A stretch of 64,000 nt of DNA from Nitrososphaerota archaeon (GTDB taxonomy: Archaea; Thermoproteota; Nitrososphaeria; Nitrososphaerales; Nitrosopumilaceae), in the NCBI GenBank assembly GCA_016201435.1, contig JACQCT010000001.1:40284-104283 (forward strand), given 5' to 3'. A program made the position numbers and the translations under genes. Shown here in pieces: positions 1,335-14,450 of this stretch; position 1 is the first letter of the stretch, and each line of letters opens with the position of its first letter. Under the pieces are notes generated by a model that ran no database searches, was not told the origin of the DNA, and saw only the letters and a program-made list of their open reading frames with translations.

Positions 1335-1937
1335 CTAATCTGGTTTCCCTGCTGCCGGTATTGGTGTACAGGACTTGGCCAGTCTGTCAAGTAGTTCTCC
1401 TATCGCATTAGCTGATTTTCCAGAAAGTTTTACCATCAATTCATGATTCATCACCATACCTTTCCAAGTAAGATTCGCAGAGCCTACCAGAGCTATGGAA
1501 TGATCAATCACAATTAGTTTGGCGTGAAGGTCTTCACGTCTATCCTCTGGATTGAAATCTCGGAGTACCAGATTACTGTATTTTTCCGCAAGTTCAAGAA
1601 GCCTTTCCTGAACGCTTTCTGGTTGTGACAAGAATCTGTTAATTATCATTGTAACTCTCGTACGACGTGCCAGTGCATCATCAAGCAGATCAAAAAACCC
1701 AGCAGAACTTTCAGTAATAGAATAGGTTGCAATTTGAATTTCATTTGTCGCTTTTGAAAATACTTCTTTCAACAGTGTCCAGACGGATCCAGTACCCTTA
1801 CCCATCCATCTGTTACCAGTTACCGCAATTTCAGGCTCATGTGAATCATCATGTGTCACTGGATACTGCCCCCGAGAAGATTTCTGTCCAGATACATATT
1901 GCGATGCGCGCATGACGTTTCTGAGAGCAAAAGGCAT
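1335..1937 (-). CDS. drmC: Phospholipase D-like protein, DrmC-type
   Basis: PLD motif LHAKLIVIDHSIALVGSANLTWKGM; overlaps the end of the DUF1998/DrmB-like gene by 82 bp. Confidence 0.8.
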   Translation of the reverse strand: MPFALRNVMRASQYVSGQKSSRGQYPVTHDDSHEPEIAVTGNRWMGKGTGSVWTLLKEVFSKATNEIQIATYSITESSAGFFDLLDDALARRTRVTMIINRFLSQPESVQERLLELAEKYSNLVLRDFNPEDRREDLHAKLIVIDHSIALVGSANLTWKGMVMNHELMVKLSGKSANAIGELLDRLAKSCTPIPAAGKPD

Positions 1938-3592
1938 GCGTAGCAGGAGGCACCGCTATGTCTTCCTGTTCTGATAACTTCTTCTGAACAAAGAGGATCG
2001 TTTGAACAGAAATCCAGATTTCTTATGGCAGTATCCAGTACATTTTCAAACTGGGGTACTAGAGATATCAGACCTCCAAGAGTTCCATCCCCTCCTGACT
2101 GAGCTGTGTAAAGAAGTATACCACCTGATAGTTCTCCAGTTTTTTTGTCTAAGACAGTGTAAACGCTTTCACGGATAGCCGCAGAAGAATATCCTGAATC
2201 AATAGATAAAGCCGAAATTATTCTGTGTGATAACGTATGCCACCAAACAAATGTTGGAGAATATTCCATGGCATTACTTAACGAATATTGTTCTTCCCAC
2301 TCTGGAGAATTAATTTTAAATGGAGTTTTTCCAAAATCAATGAAAATTCCCTCTCCAATTTGCTCCAGTCCAGGAAACCATTTTCGTTTTCCATCATAAT
2401 AAAAAGTTGGAACAAGTTTGTTCACATTAGGATCGGTTCCTAACCTTCTGTATCCTTTCTGAACTATCACAACGCGTAATCTGTCAACTGGTGTAATTCT
2501 CAATTTGAAAGGACCAAAACTTATGCCATCCCTGACATGCAGTTTATTCACCTGGAACTCTGGATTCTCCGAAGTAGGATCTGGCGGATGACCAAGAGTT
2601 GCAGATTCCTGTAATGCACGAAATTCTTCTCTCCTTATATCTTCTATATTTGTAGGTCTCTCCCTTCCAAACTGTTTTACGTCTTTTATAACTTGGAGCA
2701 ACCTTGCTTCATCAGATAATTTTATTTCGTCAATTATTCTAGGATCAAGAAGAGTAGGATCGACTGAACTCATAGTCTCCAGACTTTTCTGTAATTCTGA
2801 TTTCGTCCAGTCTTCTTCTTTCATAGCAATAATAGTTCTCATCTGTATGTCGTCAAAAATTCTATGGAGTCTTGATGCGAAACGAGGTAGTGTAATAGTG
2901 CTTATGATTTCAGGTATCCTGAGACTTGAAGAACCCCTTAGCGTTACTTCAGCCTTTTTTTGACAGGATGTGTATGAAGTCCCTTTCTCTGGAAACCTTC
3001 CCGTGCAGTGAGAAGTTCTGTTATAAACGTCTGACATACTTGCGCTATCGCCGCATTCGCATGAAATGATTAAATTTCTCAAAGAACCGCCCTCAGATCT
3101 CCAGTTGTAGATAGTTCGGTTACAATCTTTTTTGAATGAATGAACTATTCCATACCAGTCAACATCATCCATGTGACCATCTGGACATGCTTTAACGAAA
3201 CGAATTGCTTCTGCTCTTCCAGGACCCGTATGTCCAGATGCAGTGCATCTAGGACATCTTGTACGGTCTGATGAATCAAGTTGGTATAGATAATCATGTC
3301 TTATACAGAGAGCCCAGTTTGGAAAGTATCCAGTACTGAAAATTATTTCAGCATCTGGTTCAGTTAGTTCTACGTTTGTTGGAATTCTGAAAATAAGACC
3401 ATTATCAAGTAATGCAGATGCAATGCTATCAGGTATTTTGAAATCTGAAACTGAGGGAGTTCGTCCCGCACCAAATATTCTGCCCCATTCTGAAAAGTCT
3501 TTGATTATTCTTGGTCCACCTGGCGCCTCGATTATACTGCCTACTCCAAATGTGAATACGAATTGTGATGGTCTGATCGCCTGGCCTGCCAT
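1856..3592 (-). CDS. drmB: DrmB-like DUF1998-domain protein
   Basis: N-terminus IRPSQFVFTFGVGSIIEAPGG and C-terminal Cys cluster CYACLLLSETSCAHRNMYLDRNLL are typical of DrmB/DUF1998; sits directly downstream of the helicase. Confidence 0.85.
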   Translation of the reverse strand: MAGQAIRPSQFVFTFGVGSIIEAPGGPRIIKDFSEWGRIFGAGRTPSVSDFKIPDSIASALLDNGLIFRIPTNVELTEPDAEIIFSTGYFPNWALCIRHDYLYQLDSSDRTRCPRCTASGHTGPGRAEAIRFVKACPDGHMDDVDWYGIVHSFKKDCNRTIYNWRSEGGSLRNLIISCECGDSASMSDVYNRTSHCTGRFPEKGTSYTSCQKKAEVTLRGSSSLRIPEIISTITLPRFASRLHRIFDDIQMRTIIAMKEEDWTKSELQKSLETMSSVDPTLLDPRIIDEIKLSDEARLLQVIKDVKQFGRERPTNIEDIRREEFRALQESATLGHPPDPTSENPEFQVNKLHVRDGISFGPFKLRITPVDRLRVVIVQKGYRRLGTDPNVNKLVPTFYYDGKRKWFPGLEQIGEGIFIDFGKTPFKINSPEWEEQYSLSNAMEYSPTFVWWHTLSHRIISALSIDSGYSSAAIRESVYTVLDKKTGELSGGILLYTAQSGGDGTLGGLISLVPQFENVLDTAIRNLDFCSNDPLCSEEVIRTGRHSGASCYACLLLSETSCAHRNMYLDRNLLGGSIQ

Positions 3593-3594
3593 GA

Positions 3595-6500
3595 TTAACC
3601 ACTGAACCTCGTTGTTGACTCAACGTCTCGCATTGACTGCGGTGTATTTTCAAACACCATACGTTTCTTGTTCTGTTTATGCTGTTCATCACCAAGTACT
3701 ACTGCATTATTAGGTTGATAGTTGAATGCAGGTTCTGCATAAAATAATCCATTTTCAATTTTTGCAATATTCTCCCATTTATCAAAATCAGAATCGAGAT
3801 TTCTTTCTATAACGCCTTTTGGTCTTTCTCTATTTTTTGGTTGGTTTTGTGATCTATCTTCCAGTGCATCAATTATTGCATCTAGTTCAGGTACACCTCG
3901 ATTATTATTCATACGCCTAGAACCACTGTTACCTTTTGCACCCTTCCAGTATTCACTTTCATGTGCCCAGTCAGGATGTATTCTAACACCTTTTACAGAA
4001 ATTCCATTTCTGAGAATTGCTACTGCCACAGGCCCGAGAGCCCTGTCGCATGCACGTGGAGAGAATGGAGCTACTGTGACAGGTTCTACGTATCTATGTA
4101 GTGCTCTGTGATAACCGGTAAAGAACTCGTAATGATCAAGGTCTCTCGGTCTGGTCGATCTTAGGAATGTAACCACAAGTGCACCTTTCTTTCTTCCTAC
4201 TCTTCCAGTTGCCTGTATGTAACTTGCTGTTGTTTTTGGCTGACCGTGAACAATCATTAGAGAAAGTCTGTCTATGTCCACACCGGTTCCAAACATAGAA
4301 GTTGCCATAACAGCGTCGACGCCAGATTCAGAACTTTCAAGTTGCTCTATAATTGCAGGAATTCTGCTTGAATCTGTGTTACTGTTCAGCTCCAGAAGAT
4401 TATAATCTTCGATGCTTCTCGCGTTTGTAGGTCCATCCAGCTGCTTCATTCGTTCTGGAATGTCTTGTCTGTACAAACTTCTTGCAGCAGCAAGTTCGCG
4501 CATTGCGTTAAAGTAACCGACAACTGTCCAGAAATAATCCAGTTCTCCTTCGACTCTACCAGTTCCCTGAACTCTAATTCTCTCTGCTTCTTGGAGAATT
4601 GTTGACCATATTCTGATCGTAGGAGTTTGTGGACCTTTCCCTGGTCCACATACCCCAACATAGAGTCTACCAGGTCCACTATCATCTAGAGGATGACCTT
4701 CTTTTGCATTTGAAAAGAATGTATCAAGTGCTGTCATACCTGATTGTGGAAACTGTCTCAAGTCACGATTATACAGAGCACGGATCTGAGTAGAAGCCTG
4801 ACGTGTTGTTGCAGTGGATGCAATATATTTCGGGATAATAGTTTGACTGTCTCGAAATATAGTTGCAAGAAAATCAATTGCAGTTTCATACAATCCCACC
4901 ATGCTTCCCAGAGGGCCTTCGATGAGATGTAACTCATCCTGAATAATTAATTCTGGAGGGAGAAATCCATTTACTTTTATTATTTTTCCTCTTTTCTTTG
5001 AATCACCCGTATCAGGAGGTGCGATGTCTCTATGATAGCCCCATATGCTGTCATAACTATTTACATTTCCAAAAATTGCAGCTGCTTTAGGTTCAAAAGG
5101 AAGTCTGGCAAATTTATCTACTGTTGCAATAACCACTGACGGACATCTTGTGTAAACCTGTCCATCAGTTGTGTATGCTGGAATAGGAATACTGAATGAT
5201 GCATTTGTTGAAGGTATGATGAATGCTTCTGGTGGAACAAAAAATCCATGCGCTGCATCATCACTAGGAACCGTCTCGGACCAAGTAAAACTGTTTAACT
5301 TACACGATGGATCTGGACAGTGAAGTTCAAAATCCACAGGATGCTTGTAAACATCAGGAGCAGTTACTATGAAGTATCCTGGTCTGCTAGGAGCTGCACA
5401 TGCAAGTTTTCCACCAAGAATTTTTTCTGCTTGCGACTTCCACCAGTCCCATACAAGATTATCAGTGAGTTTGTCACGATTTATTGTAAATTTGATCTGA
5501 ACAGAATAATATCCCTTGTTTGGTAAATCATGAATTTTTACCTCTCTAATTTTGAAATCCCTGTAGTCAAGGTCAGTGATGTTGATTTTTGGTTTCTGTT
5601 CAGCCTTAATTATCCAGAAAATTTCATGTTCCCTTCCTGAAAGACCTGCTGCTGGTACTGAAAGAACAGATGAACAGCATGGGCACTTGATTACCTGAGC
5701 AGGTTCACCAGAATATGAAACAATTTCTCCCGGTCTCGATGTTCTTTGATGCGAATATTTTAGAATTGAAATTGCCCCAGCGTATCTTTTTCCAACTTTC
5801 TTTGAAACATCGAAACCTGTGTGATCAACGATATTGTTTGGAGTCACATCTCCTCCGAGCCACAGTCCAATAGAGAATCTTGTTGTTCCCCATATTTTTT
5901 CCCATTTTTCCTCAGATCCACTTGGCATCCAATTTTCAATTCTTAGAAGTTCACATGCAGTTATTGCAGAAAGCGCTCGTCTGAATTGCTGTATGGTGAG
6001 TAGTCTAAGCGTATATCTGGAAAGTACTGTGGTTCCCGCAGTCGACAGACTCTCGGAATCTTTTCTTAATCTTCGCAATGCAAGAGTAAAGGCCATTAGA
6101 CCTAGGTAGGCCTCTGTTTTTCCACCGCCTGTTGGATACCATAAAAGATCACATATCTTCCTGTCAGGGTGTTGCTTGTTGACAATTCCTGGAATGCATT
6201 GTAAAATGAAAGCAATCTGAAATGGTCTCCATACGAGTTTTTTTCTTCTAGACCAACTTGCCTGAGTGCTCATAACTTTATTCATAAAACAGAATGCAAG
6301 ACGTACGCTAGGTTCTTTGAGAAGTTTCATTCCCTCATCTATTCTGTCACACGACATTAGGCATTTTTTCAAATTGTCTTCAGCTAGCGGCCTTTGAGAC
6401 TCATGTAATTCATTTACCTTCTTGCTCTGTTCTTCTATCCAAACCCTGTACTGCCTTACAATTTTTTCAAGAGATGTAGAAAGTTTCTGGTAGTCACATT

Positions 6501-7431
6501 TTTCTGAAAGTATTTCCGCATCAGTGTCCTCAGCAGTCATGGTGGAAATATCTTCTACTTCCACAGTTGATTGGTTTACAGAGTACGCAGGAAGATATTC
6601 CGTCCTAACATTAGGATTAACAAATATCTCCTTATCTTCTGCCGGAAGATTTTTTATGTCATCTGGAATTAATGGACTCTCCGTCGCATTCCAAGGTCTC
6701 TCAGAATCTATTTCCTTCCATGTTGCTCCACAGAGATGTCCTCGTGCCAATCCCTGCAATTTACTGTAAAGCAGTTCTAGTTGACTTTCCTCCTGGCCTG
6801 CTAGCTTTCTCTGGTCTACCGAAAGCCCTACAACATTCTCATGAAAATTTACCCTAATCTGTGGTTGGAAAATAAGATCGTCTGTACCGAGAAACTTATC
6901 GAATTTAATTTCATTTACAAGATAAATGGAGACATGCCAGACATGATCCTTCAGCTTAACAGAGCGCAGCACTATTCGTATTCCAGTTGCCGGTCGCCAG
7001 ACTTCTTTTTCTTTTAATGCGTCAAAATCCTTTTTGACAAATCTGTTAGGTTTGCGATGCCACTTTTTGTCTGCTTCCTTAACGTATCTGGCCCAAGTAG
7101 CACAGAAATCAATAATCGGTGTACCTTCAGATTTTATTACAAAGGATAGTCCCAGACTTTTTGGAAGAGCTCGTGGATCAAAAATTGCAGGGTTGATTTC
7201 AAAATCGTTTGATCTATCAATGTTGTCCTCAATTCCTTCGTCCTCAGAAAATGTTCCAATATCCGCTTTTCCATAATCTTCAAGCTGTCTGTCGTAGTCT
7301 TTCGGTTCCAAGATGCCTGTAACATACTCGTTACGCGGATCCTTGCCATTTTCCATGATTTCCTCAGATCCACCACGAGGACCCAAGAGCTCCTTTATGA
7401 GTGAAATATATTGTCGCTGACGCACAGACAT
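3595..7431 (-). CDS. drmA: DrmA-like SF2 helicase
   Basis: 1278 aa; Walker A YPTGGGKTEAY, DExH box QDELHLIEGPLG, motif VI-like QATGRVGRKKG; followed by drmB and drmC. Confidence 0.87.
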   Translation of the reverse strand: MSVRQRQYISLIKELLGPRGGSEEIMENGKDPRNEYVTGILEPKDYDRQLEDYGKADIGTFSEDEGIEDNIDRSNDFEINPAIFDPRALPKSLGLSFVIKSEGTPIIDFCATWARYVKEADKKWHRKPNRFVKKDFDALKEKEVWRPATGIRIVLRSVKLKDHVWHVSIYLVNEIKFDKFLGTDDLIFQPQIRVNFHENVVGLSVDQRKLAGQEESQLELLYSKLQGLARGHLCGATWKEIDSERPWNATESPLIPDDIKNLPAEDKEIFVNPNVRTEYLPAYSVNQSTVEVEDISTMTAEDTDAEILSEKCDYQKLSTSLEKIVRQYRVWIEEQSKKVNELHESQRPLAEDNLKKCLMSCDRIDEGMKLLKEPSVRLAFCFMNKVMSTQASWSRRKKLVWRPFQIAFILQCIPGIVNKQHPDRKICDLLWYPTGGGKTEAYLGLMAFTLALRRLRKDSESLSTAGTTVLSRYTLRLLTIQQFRRALSAITACELLRIENWMPSGSEEKWEKIWGTTRFSIGLWLGGDVTPNNIVDHTGFDVSKKVGKRYAGAISILKYSHQRTSRPGEIVSYSGEPAQVIKCPCCSSVLSVPAAGLSGREHEIFWIIKAEQKPKINITDLDYRDFKIREVKIHDLPNKGYYSVQIKFTINRDKLTDNLVWDWWKSQAEKILGGKLACAAPSRPGYFIVTAPDVYKHPVDFELHCPDPSCKLNSFTWSETVPSDDAAHGFFVPPEAFIIPSTNASFSIPIPAYTTDGQVYTRCPSVVIATVDKFARLPFEPKAAAIFGNVNSYDSIWGYHRDIAPPDTGDSKKRGKIIKVNGFLPPELIIQDELHLIEGPLGSMVGLYETAIDFLATIFRDSQTIIPKYIASTATTRQASTQIRALYNRDLRQFPQSGMTALDTFFSNAKEGHPLDDSGPGRLYVGVCGPGKGPQTPTIRIWSTILQEAERIRVQGTGRVEGELDYFWTVVGYFNAMRELAAARSLYRQDIPERMKQLDGPTNARSIEDYNLLELNSNTDSSRIPAIIEQLESSESGVDAVMATSMFGTGVDIDRLSLMIVHGQPKTTASYIQATGRVGRKKGALVVTFLRSTRPRDLDHYEFFTGYHRALHRYVEPVTVAPFSPRACDRALGPVAVAILRNGISVKGVRIHPDWAHESEYWKGAKGNSGSRRMNNNRGVPELDAIIDALEDRSQNQPKNRERPKGVIERNLDSDFDKWENIAKIENGLFYAEPAFNYQPNNAVVLGDEQHKQNKKRMVFENTPQSMRDVESTTRFSG

Positions 7432-7542
7432 CGTGAATTTCTATTAAATTGTATGAATTTAATGATGATCTTGACCCAATTACGATCTAAATGTTGATTC
7501 AGTTTTGAGCAACCTTGACTTGGTGATTTATTAGGAAGCAGA

Positions 7543-8733
7543 ATGAAATATTGTATTATGCATTCCAATTCTTCATTGACAGTGATGGATTTTTTCTGTG
7601 GTGCAGGGGGTCTGTCAGAGGGATTCAAGCAGGCAGGTTTTAAAATTATTCTTGGTGTTGATTCAGATGAATCAGCAATAGAAACTTACACAAATCAACA
7701 CGGATGTGGTGTTGTCAGTAAAATTGAAGACATAGATGCAAATTTTATCAAAAAAGAAACAGGCCGCAGTAGAGTTGATATCATTGTTGGCGGTCCTCCA
7801 TGTCAGGGGTTCAGTACCGTTGCTGTTGGAAAGCTAAAATCACTTGATGCTCCACGAACATCAAAACATCCACTCAATCAGCTTTACAAGGAATTTATCA
7901 GAATTATTCTGGAACTAAAGCCGTCATTCTTTGTCATGGAAAATGTAAGAAGAATGACGTACATCGAAGATGGGGTCATCAAAAAATCAATAGAGCATGA
8001 TCTGAAGAATACTTACAAAGTTGATTTTTACGATCATGACGTTGTGAAATTCGGTGTGCCGCAACACAGGAAACGATGTCTTGTGATAGGTAACTGTCTC
8101 GGGCTTGAAAATCCTGAACTGCAGCAGACCCACTTTGATCCCAGATTGGAAATACCAAGAGACGGCATGCCATACGAGACTGTAAAGTCTGCAATATTGG
8201 ATCTGCCTTTCATCCATGCAGGTGAAGGAGAGGAATTTTTCAAATACACAAAAAATCCCAGAACCGAATACCAGTATGAAAGGCGCAGAAAATCAAAAGG
8301 GATTTTTAATCATGTTACAAGAAAGCACAACAAGCGGGATCTGAAGATATTCAGTATGCTAAAGCCCGGTCAGTGGATGAGCGACCTGCCGGTCAGATTC
8401 AATCCCTACAGAAAGGACATCTTTGAGGACAAGTACAAGAAACAGCACTGGGACAGACCATCATCCACAATTCTTGCCCATCTATCAAAAGATGGTCTTA
8501 TGTTCATACACCCGGATGGGAGACAGAACAGAAGCCTGACACCTAGGGAAGCTGCCAGACTGCAATCATTTGATGACAGCTATATTTTCTATGGAAACAG
8601 GACTAGTCAGTACAGACAGATCGGCAATGCAGTTCCACCGCTTTTTTCCAGAGTTATTGCAGAAGCAATAATGGAATCCATGAAAATCAAATGTGCTCCT
8701 TCAGTCAGGACTTCAATCCGTAATCGCAGATAG
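7543..8733 (+). CDS. drmMII: DNA (cytosine-5)-methyltransferase, DISARM class 2 DrmMII-type
   Basis: Motif I MDFFCGAGGLSEGF, motif IV GGPPCQGFSTV, motif VI ENVRRM, motif X GNAVPP; divergent from drmA. Start may be downstream (7558 or 7585). Confidence 0.9.
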   Translation: MKYCIMHSNSSLTVMDFFCGAGGLSEGFKQAGFKIILGVDSDESAIETYTNQHGCGVVSKIEDIDANFIKKETGRSRVDIIVGGPPCQGFSTVAVGKLKSLDAPRTSKHPLNQLYKEFIRIILELKPSFFVMENVRRMTYIEDGVIKKSIEHDLKNTYKVDFYDHDVVKFGVPQHRKRCLVIGNCLGLENPELQQTHFDPRLEIPRDGMPYETVKSAILDLPFIHAGEGEEFFKYTKNPRTEYQYERRRKSKGIFNHVTRKHNKRDLKIFSMLKPGQWMSDLPVRFNPYRKDIFEDKYKKQHWDRPSSTILAHLSKDGLMFIHPDGRQNRSLTPREAARLQSFDDSYIFYGNRTSQYRQIGNAVPPLFSRVIAEAIMESMKIKCAPSVRTSIRNRR

Positions 8734-9388
8734 TCTTTAGCGGACAGATTTTACATTTTGGATCAACTGGTGTACATACTGCTTTTCCAAGATCAAGAAG
8801 TGCCCAGTTGTACTGTTTGATATTTTTTTCCGGTACTACAGTAGAAACTAGTTTCCAAGAACTTTTTTTCTTGTGAGCAGACTTTCCAAAATCTATGGAA
8901 AGTATTCTTTCAAAAATCCTTTTGACATTAACGTCAAAAATTGGCACCTGCTGATTCAGCCCAAAACATCTGATAGCATTTACAGTGTACTGACTTTCTT
9001 TGCCTATTATTGCAAGTAATTCTGATTCTTTTGAGGGAAAATTCCCAGAATATTTTTCTACAATCATTTTTGCAACAGATTTCATTTTATCAGATCTTGA
9101 TTTCATTCCAAGTGATCTAATTATATTTTCAATTTCTTCTACAGAGCTTTTAGATAGTAAAGAAACTGTCGGAAATTTTCTGATGAATTTTTTGTAAACA
9201 TCTATAACACTTGAAGCGCGTGTTCTTCGAAGAAGCATTTCAGATACCATGATGTGATATGGATCAGATGTATTTCTCCAGGGATAGTCGGGAGAATTAT
9301 TTTTTGACCATCTTAAAAGATTATTTACAAGAATAATTTTTCTGCTGTCAACTTTCTTCATTAAATTAGAGTCATTTTGTTGAGACAT
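8705..9388 (-). CDS. HhH-GPD DNA glycosylase with 4Fe-4S cluster (MutY/Mig-like, candidate G:T mismatch glycosylase)
   Basis: WSKNNSPDYPWRNTSDPYHIMVSEMLLRRT, QYTVNAIRCFGLNQQVPIFDVNVKRIFERIL, and FeS loop CTPVDPKCKICPLKTIC. A Tyr (QYT) appears to replace the EndoIII catalytic Lys. Confidence 0.82.
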   Translation of the reverse strand: MSQQNDSNLMKKVDSRKIILVNNLLRWSKNNSPDYPWRNTSDPYHIMVSEMLLRRTRASSVIDVYKKFIRKFPTVSLLSKSSVEEIENIIRSLGMKSRSDKMKSVAKMIVEKYSGNFPSKESELLAIIGKESQYTVNAIRCFGLNQQVPIFDVNVKRIFERILSIDFGKSAHKKKSSWKLVSTVVPEKNIKQYNWALLDLGKAVCTPVDPKCKICPLKTICDYGLKS

Positions 9389-9507
9389 GAATGATAACCA
9401 TGGTTCTTTTATTATATCTATTCTGCTTCGCTCATTGTTTTAAAAGATGTAAAAAGCTCTGCGGCCGCTGATCTTGATATTAATGGAATATTGACAGGCT
9501 TTTTTAT

Positions 9508-10614
9508 TTGCTATGTTGTTTGATAAATATGAAAGCTAGGGAACTTCCAACTTATGACAAATTACTGTTACCGCTGTTAGAATACGCAAAAGATGGTCGT
9601 GATATTGCGTTAGATGTTGCAGAAAAATACTTGGCGGAAAAATTTAAACTTACTGAAGAGGAAAGGAGAAGGAAAAAACCTAGTGGAAGAGAAACAATTT
9701 TCAGGGACAGAATCTTTTGGGCTCGCTTATACCTAAAAAGAGCTGGTCTGATTTCCTATACGGAAAAAGAGGCTCATTACAAAATAACTGAAGAAGGGAA
9801 AAAATTCCTAGAAGAAAAAAACCCAGCAACACTAAATACAAAAATTTTAATGGAATTTTTTCCCTCATTCAAACAATGGCAAGACGAAATAAAGTATTCG
9901 AAGAAAATAACTCGTAAAGGAAAAAAAACAGCATCCCCTCAGGAATATCTTGGAATAGTGATACTGATTGATACTCTTGGAACCAAAGGAATACTGAAAA
10001 AAAGGGATCCTAATAAAATTAGAGAAGAATGGAGGGAATTTATCAAAAATATGAACGAAAAAGCAATTCAAGAATTTAAGAAACTTGGTAATTTCTCGTT
10101 TGATACATTTTCCGATACTATTCTTATTACTGTTGGCATAAAGGAAAAAGAATATCCGCTATACAAAATTTCTGGATTTTTGAGATCTTTTGTTATAGAA
10201 AGCATGAGAATTGATAGGCCTATAAGAGGATGTATTTCAGTAGGCCCAATTATTAAGGATGACAAGATTATCTTAGGTGATGCAATTGATGAAGCTGTAG
10301 TTTATCATCATCTTCCACAATGGGTGGGGATTTCTGCCAGTCCTTCAGCTCATATTGAAATAGAAAAATTATATCATGAAAACCGAGAAAAAACCAACCT
10401 CTATTTCCAAAAATACGATTTACCATTGAAGATGTCGGTTGAACAAGGAGCATGGGTCATAAACTGGCCGCGTCTAGTAGAAAAAGAAATTGAAATACGC
10501 GAGATTCTAGCTAAAAGAATTTTGGAAACCAAATCAGACATTGGCAATGCATTGAAATGGAGAAATACCGTGAATTTTTTTGAGCATGTTATGGAAGAAA
10601 TTGATGATTCTTAA
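9508..10614 (+). CDS. Mrr N-terminal winged-helix domain fused to nucleotidyl-cyclase-like (class III CHD-like) domain
   Basis: Mrr_N signature TYDKLLLPLLEYAKDG...LTEEERRRKKPSGRETIFRDRIFWARLYLKRAGLISYTEKEAHYKITEEGKKFL. C-terminal part has ILIDTLGTKGI, FSDTILITV, RGCISVGPI and ILGDAIDEAV, resembling cyclase metal-Asp strands. Confidence 0.65.
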   Translation: MLCCLINMKARELPTYDKLLLPLLEYAKDGRDIALDVAEKYLAEKFKLTEEERRRKKPSGRETIFRDRIFWARLYLKRAGLISYTEKEAHYKITEEGKKFLEEKNPATLNTKILMEFFPSFKQWQDEIKYSKKITRKGKKTASPQEYLGIVILIDTLGTKGILKKRDPNKIREEWREFIKNMNEKAIQEFKKLGNFSFDTFSDTILITVGIKEKEYPLYKISGFLRSFVIESMRIDRPIRGCISVGPIIKDDKIILGDAIDEAVVYHHLPQWVGISASPSAHIEIEKLYHENREKTNLYFQKYDLPLKMSVEQGAWVINWPRLVEKEIEIREILAKRILETKSDIGNALKWRNTVNFFEHVMEEIDDS

Positions 10615-10680
10615 TAACACGATCAAACTAAAATCTGTATGTTCTGAACCTAGTCATTTACTAGATTGCCTTTCTATTCT

Positions 10681-10732
10681 AGGTACCATTACCAGGCACA
10701 AATGACTGTACCAGGTACCATTACCAGGCACA
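10681..10732. repeat. 20-bp direct repeat (AGGTACCATTACCAGGCACA), two copies, 32-bp period
   Basis: 10681-10700 and 10713-10732 are identical. Confidence 0.9.
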
Positions 10733-10785
10733 TAAGACCAACGTGTGTACAGGGATAAAAGCCGGTAGATATTGTTGTATTCTTA

Positions 10786-10941
10786 TTAATTTTGATTTTG
10801 TTCCGTAGAATATCCAATAGCGCCGCCTAAAATAGCACCAACTACTGCTCCTACTGGTCCTCCTACCATTGCCCCTATCAGAGCGCCGCTACCAATTCCT
10901 GTCGCTGTTTTCATTCCATCTTTTTTTCCATTATTTGCCAT
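10786..10941 (-). CDS. 51-aa glycine-zipper protein
   Basis: MANNGKKDGMKTATGIGSGALIGAMVGGPVGAVVGAILGGAIGYSTEQNQN, translated by hand from the minus strand; below the ORF-list cutoff. Confidence 0.6.
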   Translation of the reverse strand: MANNGKKDGMKTATGIGSGALIGAMVGGPVGAVVGAILGGAIGYSTEQNQN

Positions 10942-11054: not shown

Positions 11055-12332
11055 TCATTTCTTTACTCCCCCCACAAAAATCTCTTCAGAAAATATTTCT
11101 GGGTGAAGTTCCTTAAACCGCATCATCCATCTAGTCATTACATCTTGGTTCTTCTTTAGTTGAGCAATCTCCATACTCTTTTGATATAATTCCTTATTCT
11201 CAATACGCAGTTTCTTGTTTTGAGCCTTCTCCCTTTCCTCATCAGATATGGTAAGATGAGGAACGGCATTGAGATATTCTTCTACCAATTCACCAATGTG
11301 TGTCTTGAAGTAGTTTCTGTCAAGTTTGACAAGACCAACATGATCCATCATGTACTCTTTCTTGATTAATGCTGCAAGAGGCGAATCTTTTGAGATTGTT
11401 TCCTTGTTTATTTTGTTGAAGAATCTTCGAAACCCGTTCATTATTGGTACGTCGTGTCTTCGCCTGCCTTTGGCAAGAGGTTTCCTAATTTCTGCACTCT
11501 CTGCAACCCTTGTAATTCTTCTTTTGATCGCATCAGGTTTTAGTTTTCTAACAAAAGGTCCTGCTTCTTTGAATAGTGGATCAGATGGCAAAGGCTCCTT
11601 GCCAACTTCTTGTATCCATTTTTGTTTGTAATCAAGTATTGCTTTGTATGCTTCCGGTGTGATAAATGCAGGATACTCTTCAGACGTTTTCCTGTATACA
11701 GTTAATATCCCGCAAACAATCTGTGCTTTACTCTCTTCTGATTCTGTTATATCAAAAACAATTTTGTCATTAATTTGGTAAACTGGTATCAGATCCTCCC
11801 AGTTTAATGCAAAACCTCCCTCCCTGATTCCAGAACTTGCTGCAACTAAAATCAATGCCTTGTCAATTGGTCCTCGAATAAATCCAATCATCTTTTGAAT
11901 TTCCTGTCTTGTGTATCCTCTTCCTTCAGAATCAGTATTGTCGCGTTCTGGAAATGTATAGTAGATACGTTTCCAAGCAATTGGCACATCATTCATATCA
12001 AGAAGTTTTCGAATTGGTTTAAAATATCTGCCAAACGAATTTGGGCTAAGATAATCTTTATCGGTTGTTGCAAGTTCGGTTCTCTCCTTGAGTCTTTTTG
12101 ATAAAGTTAGCAGCAGACTTGTAATCCATTCTGGGTCGGCTTTTGCCCTATGCACCATTTCAGATGCGCGCTCCTCAAAAGTTCCATTAAAAACATCTTC
12201 AAAGATATCACACAAAACTCTCCGCAAGGTGCGGGTGTACTTTTCCTTGGTAGCAGCAGCCCTCATCCCCTGGTAGAACAGGCCTATTGGTTCGTCTGCC
12301 ACTTTTTGGATTTCCTCTTTTCTTATCTTCAA
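11055..12332 (-). CDS. Tyrosine-type recombinase/integrase-like protein
   Basis: AASSGIREGGFALNWEDL resembles the tyrosine recombinase box I region; MDHVGLVKLDRNYFKTHIGELVEEYLNAVPHLTI resembles archaeal integrase C-termini; lies immediately beside a tRNA 3' end. Confidence 0.75.
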   Translation of the reverse strand: MKIRKEEIQKVADEPIGLFYQGMRAAATKEKYTRTLRRVLCDIFEDVFNGTFEERASEMVHRAKADPEWITSLLLTLSKRLKERTELATTDKDYLSPNSFGRYFKPIRKLLDMNDVPIAWKRIYYTFPERDNTDSEGRGYTRQEIQKMIGFIRGPIDKALILVAASSGIREGGFALNWEDLIPVYQINDKIVFDITESEESKAQIVCGILTVYRKTSEEYPAFITPEAYKAILDYKQKWIQEVGKEPLPSDPLFKEAGPFVRKLKPDAIKRRITRVAESAEIRKPLAKGRRRHDVPIMNGFRRFFNKINKETISKDSPLAALIKKEYMMDHVGLVKLDRNYFKTHIGELVEEYLNAVPHLTISDEEREKAQNKKLRIENKELYQKSMEIAQLKKNQDVMTRWMMRFKELHPEIFSEEIFVGGVKK

Positions 12333-12379
12333 TTATTTTCCTCTTTCGGGTCGGAACCCTAAAAAGGACATTATTGAGG

Positions 12380-12454
12380 CGGGCCCGATGGGACTCGAAC
12401 CCACGACCTGACGCTCCGCAAGCGTCCGCACTATCCAAGCTGTGCAACGGGTCC
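12380..12454 (-). tRNA. tRNA-Arg (anticodon GCG)
   Basis: D-stem GCAC/GTGC, anticodon stem-loop GACGC-TTGCGGA-GCGTC, T-arm GTGGG-TTCGAGT-CCCAT, acceptor GGACCCG/CGGGCCC with an A3-C70 mismatch. Confidence 0.85.
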
Positions 12455-13762: not shown

Positions 13763-14450
13763 TTAGGGTTTCCAGCCGGCTGGCAGTGTACCGCGTTTTG
13801 GTTTTGGCGGCTCTGGTGCAACTTTAACAGTTTGAGTTGTAGGTTCACCCTTGTATTGTTTGTCTGGAGGATGATATGACAACCTTGCTCTTGTTGCATA
13901 GTATTTGTTTCCAGTATAACCTGTAGAGCTGGTTGTTGCATATGCTGGTGCAACTTCGCTTGATGATACTTTTGGTGCCGGAGGTGGTGCTGGTCTTGTC
14001 TCTTCATGTCTTGCAGGCTGTGTTTGTGGAGTATATTCTTCTGCGGCCTGTGCACCTTTTGCTTTCCATGTTGATGAGGATGACTTTGGTTTTTGTTGTG
14101 AACTTGAGGTTTCTTGGTATGTATATTGTGGTTCTGGCGGTGGAGATGGTCGCGATGTTGATGTTTGAGTTGTAGGTTCACCCTTGTATTGTTTGTCTGG
14201 AGGATGATATGACAACCTTGCTCTTGTTGCATAGTATTTGTTTCCAGTATAACCTGTAGAGCTGGTTGTTGCATATGCTGGTGCAACTTCGCTTGATGAT
14301 ACTTGGTGCAGGTCTTGCATGTTGTTCTGCAGGTTTTACCTGAGACGATAATTGGCCTAGCTTTGCTTCAAGTTCAGCAATTTTTGCTTCAAGTTCGGAA
14401 GTAGATTTTTTAGTAGAACGTGGTTTTTTTGGTTTGATTTCTTTTGACAT
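13763..14450 (-). pseudogene. Low-complexity repeat protein with coiled-coil N-terminus, split by a 2-nt frameshift
   Basis: N-terminal ORF (14178..14450) MSKEIKPKKPRSTKKSTSELEAKIAELEAKLGQL...ARPAP and C-terminal ORF (13763..14320) join as ARPAP-KVSSSEVAPAYATT if 2 nt are restored at about 14304, matching the second internal repeat. Confidence 0.75.
13830..14304. repeat. Identical ~142-bp direct repeats at 13830-13971 and 14163-14304
   Basis: Base-for-base identity read from the sequence; 333-bp (111-codon) offset, in frame. Confidence 0.93.

Follow-up and report, generated by a model that had tools for sequence, protein, structure and literature searches.

The window analyzed here, a 64,000-nucleotide stretch of contig JACQCT010000001.1 from a Nitrososphaerota archaeon, encodes a protein in which an Mrr-type N-terminal winged helix (Mrr_N) is fused to what sequence conservation and predicted structure identify as a non-canonical cyclase-homology domain (CHD), not an ordinary cyclase. 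We read this protein as a DNA-gated nucleotide switch that would serve as accessory cargo in the conflict between hosts and mobile elements, a reading to which we give roughly even weight and in which the chemistry would probably be non-canonical.

Genomic context and domain layout

The open reading frame that carries the fusion spans 9508-10614 on the plus strand. ATG 9529 is likelier to be the start than TTG 9508, because a T-rich stretch that may be an archaeal TATA box, recognized by eye, covers the TTG. The gene lies among the following features of the window.

1335-1937, minus strand: drmC (PLD domain), PADLOC DrmC E = 3e-42
1856-3592, minus strand: drmB, PADLOC DrmB E = 1e-172
3595-7431, minus strand: drmA helicase, PADLOC DrmA, 1392 bits
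7543-8733, plus strand: m5C DNA methyltransferase (DrmMII-like), PF00145 E = 5e-58
8705-9388, minus strand: HhH-GPD protein (mismatch glycosylase / nicking endonuclease-like), PF00730 E = 1e-13
9529-10614, plus strand: Mrr_N/CHD fusion gene, 361 aa, ATG start
11055-12332, minus strand: tyrosine recombinase (integrase) of archaeal type, R..HxxR..Y motifs by eye
12378-12454, minus strand: tRNA-Arg(gcg), possible integration target, found by ARAGORN

An earlier note on this DNA had placed the gene between DISARM and the integrase. The placement is correct (DISARM at 1335-8733 on one side, the recombinase next to tRNA-Arg on the other), except that the HhH-GPD gene intervenes between DISARM and the open reading frame. 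The methyltransferase also matches the PADLOC models MTase_II (E = 8e-101) and DrmMII (E = 4e-84), and the HhH-GPD protein matches the PADLOC model for type II nicking endonucleases (E = 1.5e-38). The HhH-GPD gene overlaps the 3' end of the m5C methyltransferase gene, and its product resembles the glycosylases and nicking enzymes that accompany m5C methyltransferases. The tyrosine recombinase has no significant Pfam match. A search for an att repeat of the tRNA-Arg end gave no direct repeats of at least 14 bases, and no long inverted repeats flank the region; the borders of the island are therefore not fixed.

Three further observations concern the DNA downstream of the fusion gene. Just 3' of it, at 10674-10737, two tandem 32-nt copies contain GGTACCATTACCAGGCACA. 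A 51-aa glycine-zipper-like membrane peptide (ALIGAMVGGPVGAVVGAILGGAIG) is encoded at 10786-10941 on the minus strand, convergent with the fusion gene. The open reading frame at 13763-14320 (minus strand) holds identical 142-nt direct repeats (13830-13971 and 14163-14304), an internal protein duplication.

Within the fusion protein, the N-terminal winged helix proposed in the earlier note is recovered by Pfam and by the PADLOC model for type IV restriction enzymes (mREase_IV; residues 6-116, E = 6e-14). The proposed replacement of the Mrr nuclease holds as well: Pfam matches no Mrr PD-(D/E)XK catalytic domain in the protein, and a predicted CHD fold stands there instead. This C-terminal domain has no significant Pfam, NCBIfam or PADLOC family match. 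Its principal sites, with residue counts from 28 domain sequences of the CHD family, are given below with the winged helix; all lie on the plus strand.

9553-9813, plus strand: Mrr_N winged helix, residues 9-95, Pfam PF14338 E = 8e-23, over the Pfam cut-off
9937-10611, plus strand: putative non-canonical class III CHD, residues 137-361, from AlphaFold (AF2) topology, Foldseek and profile-profile comparison
9970-9972, plus strand: D148, equivalent of class III metal Asp 1 (LIDTLGTKG), 28/28, aligned to class III DI.GF
10114-10116, plus strand: D196, equivalent of class III metal Asp 2 (FSDT), 28/28, aligned to class III GD
10225-10245, plus strand: RGCISVG (R233-G239), equivalent of the class III RIGINTG strand, by conservation
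10276-10296, plus strand: GDAIDEA (250-256), equivalent of the class III GDxVNxAsR helix, with Asp at the Asn position
10429-10431, plus strand: K301, family-specific Lys, 27/28
10555-10569, plus strand: K343, N346 and T347, family-specific C-terminal KxxNT motif, 26, 27 and 25 of 28

Fold and conserved residues of the C-terminal domain

We generated two AF2 models from six-sequence alignments, one led by the window protein and the other by a homologue; they are not independent, because their alignments share members. With small elements omitted, the modeled C-domain runs beta-alpha-alpha-beta-beta-alpha-beta-alpha-beta-alpha-beta-beta. Mean pLDDT is 66 over the full window-protein model and mostly 70-91 within the C-domain. 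Foldseek comparison with the PDB returned, for each model, class III adenylyl or guanylyl cyclases at all of the best 50 matches listed, with best E-values of 2e-6 and 6e-6 and TM-scores normalized to the target of up to 0.60 and 0.67. The class III cyclase fold, on which the earlier note had staked its reading, is thus borne out by both models.

Profile-profile alignment of the C-domain family with 25 bacterial PF00211 domains gave an hhalign score of 33.4. As controls, 60 alignments with shuffled columns scored 12.3 +/- 2.6 (at most 22.9), and the reversed alignment reached 20.7. The register places D148 on the first metal Asp, D196 on the second, and GDAIDEA on the GDxVNxAsR helix. hhalign's own probability is only 40%, so the claim of homology rests on fold, score and register together. 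The PF00211 model itself does not match the window protein, and its best hit in the family is not significant (E = 0.087); a profile search of PDB sequences returned nothing significant. The phage family phrog_23933 matches the window protein weakly (E = 1e-4, residues 143-256) and the best family member tested at E = 3e-9.

Conservation across the 28 sequences singles out the same elements. D148, D196, G151, G234, G250 and G267 are invariant (28/28), and in the RGCISVG strand the invariant G234 is flanked by R233 (26/28, with Lys in the other two) and followed by G239 (27/28). The four motifs quoted in the earlier note (ILIDTLGTKGI, FSDTILITV, RGCISVGPI and ILGDAIDEAV) are all present and are the most conserved parts of the family, a degree of conservation that is not chance.

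The class III N/R helix, by contrast, is altered, as the earlier note had suspected. The transition-state Asn position is D254 (Asp in 18/28, Asn in 1/28) and the transition-state Arg position is V258, with no Arg among the residues listed for the 28 sequences; no relative clearly retains the two together. The position of the base-selecting Lys is D192, with Lys in 2/28, and that of the base-selecting Asp is hydrophobic, in a register set by eye. What the family conserves instead is one Arg (R233), two Lys (K301 and K343), one Asn (N346) and one Thr (T347). Judged by these residues, the CHD has the putative metal site but no other part of the canonical catalytic set, and it conserves a set of its own. 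It is because the transition-state Asn/Arg and the base-selecting residues are not conserved that we call it a non-canonical CHD and not an ordinary cyclase.

Because these class III residues are missing, catalysis may be absent. The CHD would then act as a non-catalytic sensor: it would bind, but not turn over, a nucleoside triphosphate or a cyclic nucleotide of foreign origin, and would modulate how Mrr_N binds DNA, for instance in the role of a regulator or a dominant-negative. A precedent for this reading comes from PMC7159879, which reports inactive cNMP-cyclase domains from other conflict systems. Against it, none of the 28 highly divergent sequences has lost either metal Asp, and K301 and the KxxNT residues are conserved with them; a domain that only binds will usually have lost a metal ligand in some member of its family. 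We regard a sensor of this kind as possible but doubtful. We think it more likely that the CHD carries out some form of nucleotide chemistry, with another product or by another mechanism, than that it is a dead domain: across very large divergence the metal ligands and the family's own five residues have persisted, and the canonical residues have not.

Distribution and neighborhoods of relatives

About 30 relatives of the C-domain were found. Among 400 genomes of the class, a search with the protein returned Mrr_N-only matches as well as C-domain relatives, and a 15-sequence profile detected the CHD in 20 of them. The profile search found none in the four other sampled genomes of the window's genus. 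The CHD is also present in one more genome of this phylum, in 13 of 125 genomes from the bacterial phylum to which Ca. Tenebribacter burtonii belongs, and in one Fusobacterium record; a bacterial profile added two phage contigs. Such patchiness is in keeping with an accessory gene that has moved laterally. CHD copies are broken or partial in genomes G103, G118, G183, G195, G202, G206 and G243, as one would expect if the gene is frequently lost once acquired.

Other searches were sparser. The whole fusion protein as query found nothing in genome contigs or viral contigs; a tight profile found 3 loci in genome contigs, and neither it nor a broad profile found any in viral contigs. No relative was found in a phage collection. 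Most plasmid matches were to Mrr_N in genes with a restriction-endonuclease annotation; one was a Fusobacterium CHD. The Fusobacterium vincentii protein (L031:4882-6666, NZ_CP084075.1) fuses TPR repeats to a CHD; its source is an unannotated 2.1-Mb record that is listed as a plasmid and looks like a chromosome.

The same survey bears on DISARM. The closeness of the fusion gene to drmA, drmB, drmC and the m5C methyltransferase in the window would be explained if its product were a DISARM component. Yet DrmA occurs in 8 of the 400 genomes and only the window genome has both: the CHD is absent from all 7 other DrmA-bearing genomes, and DrmA from all 19 other CHD genomes. We therefore take the fusion gene to be a neighbor of DISARM and not a part of it; membership, largely refuted by these counts, is very improbable.

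The Mrr_N-CHD architecture was found in two genomes, that of the window and G060. Their C-domains are sisters with support of 99/98, so the fusion probably arose once. Most other CHD relatives are stand-alone proteins. In two archaeal relatives (L032:9398-10693 and L033:9398-10678) the CHD is joined to an N-terminal segment that Pfam matches to an integrase below threshold (E = 0.009-0.016); AlphaFold does not resolve the fold of this segment (pLDDT under 50). In it the first catalytic Arg of tyrosine recombinases is seemingly replaced, and it is possibly a retired integrase serving as a DNA-binding module.

The second Mrr_N-CHD gene resides in a casposon-like element of G060 (L060:3031-16165) with 58-nt terminal inverted repeats (TIRs) that are 86% complementary. 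There it adjoins a methyltransferase (PADLOC MTase_II E = 1e-37), and the element also carries a DNA_pol_B_2 polymerase and a Cas1 that is 52% identical to the Pfam-confirmed Cas1 of G123. The right end of the element overlaps the apparent 3' end of an EF-2 gene, as judged by eye. G123 has a casposon-like element of its own (L061:866-10485; 57-nt TIRs, 98% complementary), with a DNA_pol_B_2 gene and a stand-alone CHD gene (9677-10402) that overlaps cas1 (8658-9680) by 4 bases. Both elements fit family-1 casposons as these are described in PMC6563490.

Elsewhere, the CHD gene has a ResIII helicase on one side and an Eco57I-type enzyme on the other in a restriction-modification locus (L079), adjoins a Dam methylase and a DndB-domain protein (L078), or adjoins a DDE transposase (L067). 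It is found near a ResIII helicase (L082), near PolB, MCM and AlbA_2 genes (L065), and near a ResIII/methyltransferase protein (L066). The protein next to the CHD in this last locus (L066:2665-5940) is 1092 aa long and combines integrase-repeat-like units, a ResIII/SNF2 helicase and Methyltransf_8. In prophages (L081, L083, L084 and L085) and two phage contigs (L092:8001-8900 and L093:4610-5350), the CHD is a single gene on the opposite strand, between tandem D12-type (Dam) methylases and a tape-measure-like gene. In the bacterial phylum, proximity to Dam in 2 of 8 independent groups would arise by chance with P of about 1e-4, a rough value, as the Dam genes were counted and the loci grouped by hand.

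The CHD gene is thus often accompanied by mobile-element and DNA-modification genes. The earlier note had tied its proposal to homologues in defense loci or mobile islands; many relatives do lie in such contexts, but several occupy ordinary neighborhoods without mobile or modification genes (L063, L064, L069, L087-L090 and the Fusobacterium TPR fusion, L031).

These neighborhoods also invite an explanation without defense, in which the CHD controls how the element carrying it integrates, replicates or is methylated. Such housekeeping would suit the overlap with cas1 inside the G123 casposon, the recombinase-like segment of the two archaeal relatives, the tyrosine recombinase beside the fusion gene in the window, and the prophage position between the Dam genes and the tape measure gene. 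The last of these cuts both ways, however, as an opposite-strand single gene in a prophage is typical of accessory (moron) genes, and the CHD is also found inside the restriction-modification locus and in neighborhoods that lack a mobile element. We judge housekeeping rather unlikely, with the proviso that it partly overlaps with the other readings.

Proposed function

The earlier note had further suggested a Pycsar-like or CBASS-like system, in which the protein would make a cyclic mononucleotide that activates a dedicated effector. The class III fold with its metal Asp residues would suit such a role, as would one relative that matches the PycC model, though not significantly (E = 0.014); the window protein has no match to that model at E 1e-3. 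Against it, the canonical catalytic residues are missing and no effector gene adjoins the fusion gene at the window locus. The window genome also has no PF00027 cNMP-binding protein by a search that was positive in 10 of 14 control genomes, which is evidence against a Pycsar-like circuit. This absence and the contig binning carry some doubt, because the assembly is 96% complete with 8.9% contamination. We consider such a system improbable, and this part of the earlier proposal is not supported. As to CBASS, the C-domain is predicted to adopt a class III-type cyclase fold and not the Pol-beta fold of CD-NTases.

We thus return to a DNA-gated nucleotide switch. The Mrr_N winged helix would bind DNA and, by analogy with Mrr-type type IV enzymes, would probably read its modification state. 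The CHD, which should dimerize, may bind a metal-nucleoside triphosphate at D148 and D196, as its fold and residues suggest. Recognition of DNA by Mrr_N would then change the state of the CHD, and candidate outputs are a signal or control over a partner, for instance a methyltransferase, a nuclease or an integrase.

A bolder version, which we put forward tentatively and think unlikely to hold in full, is a signaling enzyme gated by DNA modification, in which an Mrr-type reader drives a re-wired CHD that makes an unusual nucleotide product. The protein would then be one of a modular family of readers joined to CHDs and traded among casposons, prophages and restriction loci.

If the CHD is active, a single polypeptide would connect DNA recognition of the restriction type with nucleotide signaling. 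This would link two branches of prokaryotic immunity, a link for which we found no description in the portion of the literature open to our search. Even if it is inactive, the CHD family is widespread and unannotated, has distinctive conserved residues, and recurs in casposons, in prophages and beside DNA methyltransferases. In either case, the role of CHD cargo in mobile-element conflict can be tested with a defined protein and defined mutations.

Comparison with known systems

Within the open literature searched, we found no description of an Mrr_N-CHD protein or of the CHD family. The nearest phage family, phrog_23933, matches CHD members, has no assigned function and has no described Mrr_N fusion. 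With thaumarchaeal family-1 casposons, as presented in PMC6563490, the G060 element has pPolB, Cas1 and long TIRs in common; a search of the main text of that source found neither cyclase nor Mrr mentioned. Unlike the G060 copy, the window copy of the fusion gene is not in a casposon.

With PycC of Pycsar the window protein, itself a possible defense protein, shares a class III-type fold and the retention of the metal Asp residues (PMC11224242). Pycsar has an adjacent PycTIR or PycTM effector, whereas the fusion gene has none. With class III cyclases (PF00211) the protein shares the predicted fold topology and order, the two metal Asp residues, the RxxIxxG strand and the G.A[IV].xA helix. It differs from them in lacking the transition-state Asn/Arg, the base-selecting Lys/Asp and a significant PF00211 match, and in the additional conserved K301 and C-terminal KxxNT of its family. 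With Mrr type IV enzymes, which join Mrr_N to the Mrr catalytic domain, it shares the N-terminal winged helix, by a significant match over the full length of that domain. Where those enzymes have a PD-(D/E)XK nuclease, the window protein has a predicted CHD.
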